A stretch of DNA of 64,000 nucleotides from assembly GCA_018268595.1 (NCBI GenBank), contig JAFDWH010000019.1:1-64000 (forward strand), written 5' to 3'. A model generated the notes under the pieces. It searched no databases and had not been told where the DNA came from. It saw only the letters and a program-made list of their open reading frames with translations. The translations under genes were made by a program, and so were the position numbers. Below, in pieces: positions 19,962-24,090 of this stretch (the stretch's first letter is position 1; each line of letters opens with the position of its first letter). This DNA is from Actinomycetota bacterium. Lineage in GTDB: Bacteria; Actinomycetota; Thermoleophilia; Solirubrobacterales; Solirubrobacteraceae.

Positions 19962-22544
19962 ATGTCGACGCTGGAGCAGCGAACCCGTTACGAGGCTGCG
20001 GAGGTGGAGCCGCGCATCGTCAGACGCTGGCTCGACTCCGGCCTGTTCCACCCCGAGCCCGAGGGCGACGCGGGGGAGACCTACTCGATCGCGGTGCCGC
20101 CGCCGAACGTCACCGGCGCTCTGCACATGGGCCACGCGCTCAACGGCTCGATCCAGGACGTGCTGATCCGCTTCCACCGCGCGCGCGGCAAGCGCACGAA
20201 GTGGATCGCCGGCACCGACCACGCCGGCATCGCGACGCAGAAGCAGGTCGAGAAGCAGCTCGCCGAGGAGGGCACCTCGCGCACGGCGCTCGGCCGTGAG
20301 GCGTTCGAGCAGCGCGTGTGGAGATGGCGCGAGCAGTACGGCTCGACGATCATCGAGCAGTTCCAGCGGCTCGGCGCCTCGCTCGACTACGAGGACGAGC
20401 GCTTCACGCTCGACGCGCGCTACCACGACGCGGTCCTGAAGGTCTTCGTCGACCTCTACGAGAAGGGCCTGATCTACCGCGACAACTACATGGTCAACTG
20501 GGACCCGGGCTCGGGCTCGGCGATCTCCGACCTCGAGGTCGAGAACAGAACGGTCGTCGACTCGCTGACCTACGTCGCCTACCCGATCAAGGACGCCGAC
20601 GGCGAGACGATCACGGTCGCGACCGTGCGTCCCGAGACGATGCTCGCCGACACGGCCGTCGCCGTGAACCCGTCCGACGAGCGCTACAAGCATCTGGTCG
20701 GCCGGACCGCGATCCTGCCGCTCGTCGGGCGCGAGCTGCCGATCGTCGCCGACGACTACGTCAAGCCGGAGTTCGGCACCGGCGCGCTCAAGATCACGCC
20801 CGGCCACGACCCGAACGACTTCGAGATCGGCCGCCGTCACAGCCTGCCCGAGATCACCGTGATCGGCGAGGACGGGCGCATGACGGCCGCGGCCGGCGAG
20901 CGCTTCGCAGGCCTCACCGTCAGCGAGGCGCAGGCTGCGGTCGTGGAGGCGCTGCGCGCGGAGGGCCGGCTCGTGAGAGCCGAGCCCTACGAGCACGAGG
21001 TGCCGTTCTCCCACCGCTCCGGCGAGCGCGTCGAGCCGCTCATCAGCCTCCAGTGGTTCATGCGCATGGACGAGCTGGCGCAGCCGGCGATCGCCGCCGT
21101 CAAGGACGGCCGCGTCCGGATCCATCCCGAGCGCTGGGCGCGCGTCTACCTCGACTGGATGGAGAGCATCCGCCCGTGGTGCGTCTCGCGCCAGCTGTGG
21201 TGGGGGCACCGGCTGCCCGTCTGGTACCGCGGCGAGGGCGAGCGGGAGGAGACGTACGTCGGCGCGACGCCGCCCGAGGGGGACGGCTGGCGCCAGGACG
21301 AGGACGTGCTCGACACGTGGTTCTCCTCCGCGCTGTGGCCGTTCGCGACGCTCGGGTGGCCCGAGCAGACGCCGGAGCTGAAGGCGTTCTACCCGACCGA
21401 CGTGCTCTCGACGGCGCGCGACATCCTCTTCCTGTGGGTCGCGCGCATGATCATGATGGGGCTCGAGTTCGCCGGCGACGTCCCGTTCGACGACGTCTAC
21501 ATCCACTCCGTGATCCAGGCGCCCGACGGCCGGCGCATGAGCAAGTCGCTCGGGACCGGGATCGACCCGCTCGACGAGATCGAGAAGCATGGCGCCGACG
21601 GCGTGCGCTTCGGCCTGCTCGCGATGTCCTCCTCCCAGGACGTGCGCTACAGCGCCGAGAAGGTGCAGCAGGGCGAGCAGCTCGCGAACAAGCTGTGGAA
21701 CGCCTCGCGCCTGATCCTCACGCGGATCGACCCCGACGCCCGGGCGGCGTGCAGGCCGCGCGCGATCGAGGACCGCTGGATCGTCAGCCGCCTCGCCGCC
21801 GCGCGCGCGACGTTCGAGGCCCACGTCGCCGCGTTCGACTTCTCGCACGCCGCGCTGACGCTCTACGACTTCGTCTACGGCGAGCTGTGCGACTGGTACC
21901 TGGAGCTGGTCAAGCCGCGCCTCTACGAGGCCGAGGGCGAGGAGCGCGCGGACCTCGACGCGACGCTGCTGCACGTGCTGACCGAGACGCTCCAGCTCGC
22001 GCACCCGGTGATCCCGTTCGTGACCGAGGAGATCTGGTCGTTCGTGCCGGGCGCCGAGGGGCTGCTGGCGGCGCGCCAGGTCAGCGGGGCGGACGCGACC
22101 GCGCGCGATCCCGAGGCCGAGCGCGCGCTCGGCGACGCGATCGCCGCCGTGCAGGCGCTGCGCGGCTGGCGCGACGGCGTCGGCGCCCCGGTCGCCGCGC
22201 GCATCCCCGCGCGGCTGGAGGCGGGCGGCTACGACGAGACGGCCGCGCACGTCGCGCGGCTCGCGCGCTTCGAGCTGGCGCCGAGCGCGAACGGGACCGA
22301 CGCGCAGGACGCCGCCACGATCGCGATCCCCGGCGGCGCCGTCGTCGTGCACGCGAGCGACGCGGTCGACCTCGGCGCGGCCGAGCGCAAGCTGGCCGAG
22401 CGGCGCGCCAAGCTCGAGGGCGAGGTGGCGCGCTGCGCGGGCAAGCTCGCGAACGAGGGCTTCGTCGCGAAGGCGCCGCCGGCCGTCGTCGAGGCCGAGC
22501 GGGCGAAGCTCGCCGAGCTGCGCGCCGAGCTGGAGGCGCTGTGA
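19962..22544 (+). CDS. valS: valyl-tRNA synthetase
   Basis: Class I aminoacyl-tRNA synthetase of 860 residues that charges tRNA-Val. The HIGH-type motif is HMGHALN in PPNVTGALHMGHALNG near residue 47, and the KMSKS motif is RRMSKSLG. The editing domain lies between them (VRPETMLADTAVAVNP). The anticodon-binding domain follows, and a C-terminal coiled coil rich in Ala/Glu/Arg (ERKLAERRAKLEGEVARCAG) ends the protein, as is normal for ValRS. ATG 19962 gives the usual N-terminus; the longer upstream frame runs through the XRE gene and is not used. The stop overlaps the folC GTG in GTGA. Confidence 0.96.
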   Translation: MSTLEQRTRYEAAEVEPRIVRRWLDSGLFHPEPEGDAGETYSIAVPPPNVTGALHMGHALNGSIQDVLIRFHRARGKRTKWIAGTDHAGIATQKQVEKQLAEEGTSRTALGREAFEQRVWRWREQYGSTIIEQFQRLGASLDYEDERFTLDARYHDAVLKVFVDLYEKGLIYRDNYMVNWDPGSGSAISDLEVENRTVVDSLTYVAYPIKDADGETITVATVRPETMLADTAVAVNPSDERYKHLVGRTAILPLVGRELPIVADDYVKPEFGTGALKITPGHDPNDFEIGRRHSLPEITVIGEDGRMTAAAGERFAGLTVSEAQAAVVEALRAEGRLVRAEPYEHEVPFSHRSGERVEPLISLQWFMRMDELAQPAIAAVKDGRVRIHPERWARVYLDWMESIRPWCVSRQLWWGHRLPVWYRGEGEREETYVGATPPEGDGWRQDEDVLDTWFSSALWPFATLGWPEQTPELKAFYPTDVLSTARDILFLWVARMIMMGLEFAGDVPFDDVYIHSVIQAPDGRRMSKSLGTGIDPLDEIEKHGADGVRFGLLAMSSSQDVRYSAEKVQQGEQLANKLWNASRLILTRIDPDARAACRPRAIEDRWIVSRLAAARATFEAHVAAFDFSHAALTLYDFVYGELCDWYLELVKPRLYEAEGEERADLDATLLHVLTETLQLAHPVIPFVTEEIWSFVPGAEGLLAARQVSGADATARDPEAERALGDAIAAVQALRGWRDGVGAPVAARIPARLEAGGYDETAAHVARLARFELAPSANGTDAQDAATIAIPGGAVVVHASDAVDLGAAERKLAERRAKLEGEVARCAGKLANEGFVAKAPPAVVEAERAKLAELRAELEAL

Positions 22545-23806
22545 CGCCGGGCGGCTGGTCGCTCGCGGACGCCGAGCGCTACCTGCTCGGGCTCGAGCTG
22601 TTCGGCATGCGCTTCGGGCTCGACCGCATGCGCCGCCTGATGACGACGCTCGACCAGCCGGAGCGCCGCTACGACACGATCCACGTCGTCGGCACGAACG
22701 GCAAGTCCTCGACGACGCGCATGCTCGCCGCGATCCTGCAGCGGCACGAGCTGCGCGTCGGCGCCTACCTGTCGCCGCACCTCGTCTCGTTCGCCGAACG
22801 CATCCGCGTCGACGACCGCGACGTCGAGCCGCGCGCGTTCGCGCGCGCCGTCGAGCGTGCCGCGCACGCCGCCGCGCTCGTCGACCGCCGCCAGCCGTCC
22901 GACGACCGCGTCACGCAGTTCGAGGCGCTGACGGCTGCCGCCTACTCCGAGCTGGCGGCGCGCGAGGTCGACGTGGCGGTGGTCGAGGCGGGACTCGGCG
23001 GGCGCTGGGACGCGACCAACGTGATCCCCTCGACCGTGCAGGTGCTGACGAGCGTCGGGCTCGAGCACACGCGCTGGCTCGGCCCGACCGTGCGCGACAT
23101 CGCGCGCGAGAAGCTCGCGGTCGTGCGTGACGGCGCCACGCTCGTGGTCGGCGCCGGCCTGCACCCGGACGCGCTCGAGGAGGCGCACGCGGCCGCCGCG
23201 CGCCACGGTGCCCGGCTCGTGCAGGCGCCGGTCGACCCGGGCGTCGAGGTCGCCGCGCCGGGCGCCTTCCAGCGCCGCAACTTCGCGCTCGCGCGCACCG
23301 CCGCCGAGGCATATCTGCAGGCGACCGGCCGCAGCGCCGAGCTGGCGCGCGTGCGCGCCGCGGCCGCCGCCGTGACGGTGCCCGGCCGCCTGCAGGTCGT
23401 CGCGCACGAGCCGCTGACGCTGCTCGACGGCGCGCACAACGCCGACGGCGTCGCCGCGCTCGCCGAGTCGCTTCCGCAGCTGACGGCCGGCCGCAGGCTC
23501 GTCGCGGTCGTCTCCGTGCTGGACGACAAGGACGCCGCCGGCATGCTGCGCGTGCTGCTGCCAAACGCCGCGCACGTCGTCTTCACGCGCAGCCGCAATC
23601 CGCGCGCGTTGCCGCCGGCGACGCTCGCCTCGCTGAGCGCGCAGCTCGACGGGCCGCCGTCCGAGCTGGAAGGGGACCCGCGCCGCGCGCTCGCGCGCGC
23701 GCGCGAGCTGGCCGGCGCCGGCGGCGTCGTGCTCGCGACCGGCTCGATCTACCTCGTCGCCGACCTGCTCGCGCCCGCCGGGCAGCGCAGCGCCTCGATG
23801 CTCTAG
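22541..23806 (+). CDS. folC: bifunctional folylpolyglutamate/dihydrofolate synthase
   Basis: Mur-ligase-type enzyme of 421 residues that adds glutamate to folates and, in the bifunctional form, to dihydropteroate. The ATP loop is HVVGTNGKSSTTRML near residue 50. SPHLVSFAERIRV follows, and VVEAGLGGRWDATNV carries the metal-binding Glu. LLDGAHNADGVAAL is the C-terminal domain signature. GTG 22541 overlaps the valS stop, a very common actinobacterial pairing. The TAG stop touches the first base of the fold-back element at 23806. Confidence 0.94.
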   Translation: MTPGGWSLADAERYLLGLELFGMRFGLDRMRRLMTTLDQPERRYDTIHVVGTNGKSSTTRMLAAILQRHELRVGAYLSPHLVSFAERIRVDDRDVEPRAFARAVERAAHAAALVDRRQPSDDRVTQFEALTAAAYSELAAREVDVAVVEAGLGGRWDATNVIPSTVQVLTSVGLEHTRWLGPTVRDIAREKLAVVRDGATLVVGAGLHPDALEEAHAAAARHGARLVQAPVDPGVEVAAPGAFQRRNFALARTAAEAYLQATGRSAELARVRAAAAAVTVPGRLQVVAHEPLTLLDGAHNADGVAALAESLPQLTAGRRLVAVVSVLDDKDAAGMLRVLLPNAAHVVFTRSRNPRALPPATLASLSAQLDGPPSELEGDPRRALARARELAGAGGVVLATGSIYLVADLLAPAGQRSASML

Positions 23807-23968
23807 ATGGTCGATCCCATGATCTCGCGGCGCGACGGTCACGCTGGGTGGCGCTGGACGCCACACGGCGTCTCGCCAATGCCGCCAGCATTGGCTTCGA
23901 CACCATGCGTCGCCCAGCATCCACCCATCGCACCCGCCGCATCCACGAATCTCATGGAATCGACCATC
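23806..23968. repeat. 163-bp imperfect fold-back (MITE-like) element
   Basis: The two halves are inverted copies. The ends GATGGTCGATCCCATGA (23806-23822) and TCATGGAATCGACCATC (23952-23968) match in 16 of 17 positions. The centre is CCAATGC-CGCCA-GCATTGG (23876-23894), and the stretch between can be aligned across arms with about three quarters identity by hand. It starts at the last base of the folC stop and ends 2 bases before the next ATG. It could be a non-autonomous transposon remnant, a terminator-like structure or a large RNA hairpin. No second copy was noticed in the window. Confidence 0.75.
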
Positions 23969-23970
23969 TG

Positions 23971-24090
23971 ATGGAACCCGGCGACGGCCCTCGCTTCCTG
24001 CCGATGATCGGGCTCGTGGCGGCCGTCGTGGCCGTCGTGATCCTGATCTTCTTCGCGATCGGCTACGCCTTCGGGCGCATGTTCCTGTAG
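23971..24090 (+). CDS. 39-residue single-pass membrane protein
   Basis: A short polar start (MEPGDGPRFLP) is followed by one long hydrophobic helix (IGLVAAVVAVVILIFFAIGY) and the end AFGRMFL. No function can be assigned. An in-frame extension upstream to 23848 would be encoded by the fold-back element and was rejected. The ATG lies 2 bases after that element, so any structure formed by it would sit directly against the start. The next gene starts 25 bases later behind its own promoter-like hexamer. Confidence 0.6.
   Translation: MEPGDGPRFLPMIGLVAAVVAVVILIFFAIGYAFGRMFL

Follow-up and report, generated by a model that had tools for sequence, protein, structure and literature searches.

A mobile fold-back element with IS982-type ends and a candidate structured-RNA interior in Thermoleophilia

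The element between folC and a small membrane-protein gene

In the window, the whole 64,000-nucleotide stretch analysed here from an actinobacterial genome of the Solirubrobacteraceae, a folC-like gene is separated from a small membrane-protein gene by a 163 bp fold-back element. The initial annotation, made from the sequence letters, placed the element correctly: its first base is the final G of the TAG that ends folC (23804–23806), and it closes 2 bases before the ATG at 23971. The features of the locus are as follows.

22541–23806, + strand: upstream folC-like gene, with matches in congeners; the TAG stop spans the junction, and the gene name is that of the initial annotation
23804–23805: left flanking TA, a probable target duplication; the first G of the element completes the folC stop TAG
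23806–23968, − strand (the conserved hairpin strand, antisense to folC): mobile fold-back element, 163 bp, recognized from copies in its own genome and by covariance model R1
23806–23822, + strand: left terminal inverted repeat, GATGGTCGATCCCATGA, pairing with the other end at 16/17 positions; the ends are as in IS982-family elements
23828–23945, − strand: conserved hairpin core, common to copies with different ends; 123.4 bits with the core-only model R2
23876–23894: apical stem-loop CCAATGC-CGCCA-GCATTGG, adjoining an internal loop GAA/GA on the − strand
23952–23968, − strand: right terminal inverted repeat, GATGGTCGATTCCATGA in the − strand reading
23969–23970: right flank, TG; most copies have TA here, and TG is probably the duplicated dinucleotide after divergence
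23971–24090, + strand: downstream small membrane-protein gene, directly joined to folC in congeners

The inverted symmetry first described by eye is borne out. The 17-base ends agree at 16 positions, the centre is perfect, and comparison of the element with its own reverse complement gives 122 identical columns of 169, or about 61 per arm, in line with the hand count of about 61 of 81; most of the mismatches in that count are G-U pairs on the − strand. The self-complementarity score is 66, against a maximum of 53 and a mean of 16 in about 300 random segments of the window. As RNA, the + strand folds at −86.6 kcal/mol (z −7.5) and the − strand, as a near-perfect hairpin, at −128.3 kcal/mol (z −13.7); on neither strand did any of 200 shuffles equal the fold. 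The palindrome is thus beyond chance. The strand antisense to folC forms 71 pairs (12 G-U) vs 57 on the sense strand, the gap being mainly G-U, and model R1 matches positions 23804–23970 with 178.5 bits on the − strand vs 84.3 on the + strand. The suggestion of a giant RNA hairpin is therefore supported as far as the hairpin goes; the conserved strand, though, is antisense to folC and its neighbour.

Copies, target sites and the IS982 partner

Further copies are present in the window's genome (G000), in a sister assembly (G003) and beyond. G000 contains five close, full-length copies, with 83–100% identity over 163 bp, and a further three, diverged, found by the covariance model; G003 has several, among them copies that enclose a nested ~20-bp hairpin or have lost part of the interior, and G006 has at least three. 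The site beside folC is empty in five congeners (G001, G003–G006), where folC runs straight into the small membrane-protein gene, and relatives read CTC-TGATGG or CTG-TGA at the site of the right flank. Two congeners have a stop-start overlap, TGATGG, between the two genes, which is broken by the insertion in the window's genome; in relatives translation of the two genes is probably coupled, and the insertion would have parted them. A 2-bp target duplication is seen at the level of the family, with TA/TA flanks in 45 of 112 copies and CA/CA in one (L002), the window copy itself having diverged to TA/TG. No reading frame is open across all copies, and the element is too short to encode an IS982 transposase.

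The ends of the element (GATGGTYGATTCC) are also found on ~1-kb IS982-family insertion sequences (ISs) from the same bacterial group, which have a CTAG target and a 2-bp duplication, usually TA. The end pattern TAGATGRTYGATTCCACGA matched 71 stretches when genomes of 84,980 species were searched; almost every match is in a record labelled as Solirubrobacterales, Thermoleophilia or unspecified actinobacteria. Where a partner end lay in reach it was mostly 163–166 bp off; in two cases it lay at ~1 kb, and the encoded transposase scored above the NCBIfam IS982 cut-off. A transposase with matching ends, proposed as a check in the initial annotation, is thus found. In genome G096 there are 17 IS copies that share these termini, all exactly 1000 bp long and in CTAG-like sites; TA flanks both sides in 16 and GA both sides in one, which fixes the duplication at 2 bp. 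The sole IS982 gene found in the window's genome is broken (G000:C30:65841-66606; L165, L203), and the copies there are therefore probably now stranded. Plasmid and phage collections gave no match.

On this sequence evidence the element is best classed as a non-autonomous mobile element of Thermoleophilia, similar to miniature inverted-repeat transposable elements (MITEs), because its ends are those of IS982-family ISs inserting at CTAG with a 2-bp duplication. The proposal of a MITE or palindromic element is upheld by the additional copies, the matching ends, the duplication and the empty sites. Other origins were considered and rejected. An IS630/Tc1 origin, suggested by the TA duplication, lacks a partner transposase with these ends; for an IS630-derived, Correia-like MITE there is no DDE_3 match in G000, and a degenerate copy in G003 is without such ends. 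The REP/RAYT palindrome is 20–40 bp long (PMC3733652). Such a palindrome, with a Y1 transposase and no target duplication, does not agree with the 163 bp length, the 2-bp duplication and the DDE partner, although no search for RAYT genes was made. The lengths 163 and 166, which become multiples of three with the 2-bp duplication added, suggested a coding frame, but none stays open throughout the copies.

Because its first base is G and its last is C, the element restores CTAG at both junctions on insertion into C-TA-G and rebuilds a TAG stop. A simple GC-frame gene call puts the stop codon of a gene at a junction in 70 of the 112 copies, the one beside folC among them, and 18 of 54 CTAG sites in the flanks are at predicted TAG stops. 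CTAG occurs 7 times in window positions 1–64000, vs about 166 expected from base composition; one of the seven was created by this insertion. The rarity of CTAG in these genomes, with the rebuilding of TAG, offers a simple reason for elements at stop codons, and the excess probably reflects target choice combined with loss of damaging insertions.

Several variants were seen amongst the copies. Three in G003 (L009, L010 and L011) share an additional ~20-bp hairpin (GGGCTGGCTTCGCCAGCC), located at the same point in one arm. A deleted copy (L067, G003:C105:7864-7986) lies apparently between kdpF and kdpA, named by eye, and its junction forms the kdpF stop. L367 (G270:C177:1860-2192) is a direct tandem of two copies with the junction dinucleotide in common. 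Two 37-bp palindromes, L058 (G003:C21:2213-2249) and L075 (G002:C536:4268-4304), have the same ends and TA flanks without the interior, and are either deletion products or separate mini-elements.

Conservation of one hairpin strand

With strand assigned by the covariance model, all 112 copies fold better on the conserved strand, with a mean of 9.7 G-U pairs vs 1.0. For 34 copies collected before the model existed, most of them through BLAST or the end pattern, energy and homology decided the strand; in 32 of these the assigned strand is the richer in G-U pairs, and both exceptions come from one genome. Hairpin length is near-constant (160–170 bases). The core consensus is CGTGGATGC..GGCG.CGC / GGGTGGCGTC.GGCGCCGCG, and conservation is seen in the CGTGGATGC / GGCGCCGCG motif, which has a U-G wobble at model positions 52–119, in a G-U wobble at 63–108, and in an apical internal loop GMA/RA, present as GAA/GA or GCA/AA.

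Compensatory-change analysis places covariation above both shuffled and slid controls. In A2, a sequence-only MAFFT alignment, two-sided changes occur in 20 of 65 pairs vs 9.2 ± 1.9 shuffled, above all 500 shuffles; 95% of cells pair vs 32–47% in slid controls, and covariation exceeds every slid control. In A3, 100 copies aligned to the covariance model, at least two Watson–Crick types occur at 62 of 65 pairs and G-U cells number 741 vs 53 A-C, counts that lean towards structure because the alignment is model-fitted. Positions 52–119 are T-G in 89 of the 100 rows and 63–108 are G-T in 77. The structured-RNA families of Rfam 15 likewise have conserved covarying folds; none reaches its gathering score here, the only resemblances being weak ones to microRNA hairpins.

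Intrastrand template switching (quasi-palindrome correction) could keep the arms complementary without selection on RNA. It would produce changes on both sides of a pair and could transfer a new end from one arm to the other. However, it should erase G-U pairs, yet the wobbles at 52–119 and 63–108 persist, and strand polarity and the conserved loop motifs are left unexplained; we regard it as quite improbable.

Model R1 matches in 58 of 146 genomes of the family (20 of 25 genera) and in 81 of 399 Thermoleophilia genomes (47 of 128 genera). Model R2 was built from GATGG-ended Conexibacter copies stripped of their ends. It matched every one of the 44 loci tested that have other ends, and no IS982 locus of 22; IS982-family ISs thus share the terminal repeats and the CTAG/TA target, and differ from the element in encoding a transposase and in having no core-hairpin match. 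In a 396-genome phylum sample, where stricter filters limited its sensitivity, R2 matched four genomes, all of this order, and none outside the class. Besides GATGG, the ends include AGAACCTGTTTCA and relatives, and also AGGGTCTGTC and AGTGCCCC. An IS5-like partner was considered for the AGAACCTGTTTCA type, and pattern and PF13340 searches gave no such IS. Two loci in the window's genome, L238 and L239, are 97% identical in the core and 56% in the ends, each end pair still being largely self-complementary; core and ends therefore evolve separately.

These results bear on whether this is an ordinary IS982-derived MITE, its palindrome a by-product of origin and its pairing and polarity passively inherited from a few master copies. 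That account agrees with the IS982 ends, the target duplication, the copies and the empty site, and there is a published precedent in MITECca01 of Cardinium, an IS982-derived MITE of about 240 bp in a single lineage (PMC9769881). However, compensatory changes far exceed the controls, the core is conserved across families with different ends, and length is near-constant. Sequence identity between clusters falls to 50–60%, at which passive inheritance would not keep pairing. This explanation is unlikely. MITECca01 is also short, without a transposase and with IS982-like ends, and movement in trans was inferred for it; it differs in being derived from a parental IS in one lineage, and the parts of that report consulted here mention no conserved RNA hairpin or end exchange (PMC9769881). 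Searches of the literature on IS982 MITEs and Conexibacter MITEs found the Cardinium case alone, and those on structured RNAs in Thermoleophilia found nothing relevant.

Gene context and interpretation

Control of the next gene, as raised in the initial annotation, does not find support. A cis-regulatory hairpin for the small membrane-protein gene would suit the position between folC and that gene, where it splits the stop-start overlap of congeners. But copies adjoin unrelated genes on either strand, in pairs that run in tandem, converge or diverge, and congeners are without the element here; a cis-regulatory role is very improbable. In tandem gene pairs, antisense copies outnumber sense ones overall, and by 11 vs 1 in the Conexibacter genomes, counts in which copies are not independent. 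This bias may reflect removal of copies that place the stronger hairpin in mRNA, antisense placement in operons then being the outcome of selection against a near-perfect double-stranded RNA hairpin in sense mRNA.

We consider it likely that the element is a non-autonomous, MITE-like element with IS982-type ends whose interior acts as a structured RNA from one strand. The transposition part is well supported; for the RNA part, comparative evidence points to a structured RNA that is under selection and travels as a transposable unit, since pairs covary, G-U is nearly confined to the antisense strand, and the ends change around a conserved core. A transposase would act in trans on the element, the IS982-type ends directing insertion at C-TA-G with a 2-bp duplication and a rebuilt TAG stop. 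At one stage or another in the life cycle of the element, the conserved strand would act as a structured RNA. Its hairpin core would probably bind not the transposase but a factor that these hosts have in common, because the core persists while the transposase-recognized ends change.

Several points weigh against this reading, beyond the model-fitted lean of the A3 counts. Matching 2-bp flanks are kept in just 47 of 112 copies, and those of the window copy are TA/TG. No IS carrying non-GATGG ends was found, nor was a promoter identified that would serve the conserved strand. That strand has no uniform orientation relative to genes (tandem pairs, 38 antisense vs 16 sense). DNA parameters favour the same strand too, at −51 vs −37.5 kcal/mol. 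The last point also favours the main alternative, that the selected structure is a single-stranded DNA hairpin of the conserved strand, formed in replication or transposition; a fold-back intermediate could help to explain the coordinated replacement of both ends. However, the strong excess of G-U over A-C and the fixed wobble pairs fit RNA more naturally, and the partner transposase is a DDE enzyme, a class that acts on double-stranded ends. A DNA hairpin is therefore less likely than a structured RNA, and on the whole rather unlikely.

An extension of the structured-RNA reading, possible but short of an even chance, is that a Thermoleophilia-wide RNA hairpin is a persistent mobile unit that swaps terminal repeats between transposon families and is moved by different transposases. 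Palindromic MITEs such as ERIC and Correia can affect transcripts (PMC10969869). Compared by description, and partly from general knowledge, those elements are likewise palindromic, intergenic, TA-inserting and roughly 100–170 bp long. They belong to other phyla, and we know of no strand-polarized conservation or end exchange in either. Bacterial MITEs are usually viewed as decayed ISs with disposable interiors. Here that view is reversed, the interior being conserved class-wide while the ends change, which points to selection on a structured RNA within a mobile element. If the extension above is true, the hairpin would be a gene for an RNA and at the same time a passenger that jumps. The family offers many natural variants for testing what the RNA of a MITE does.
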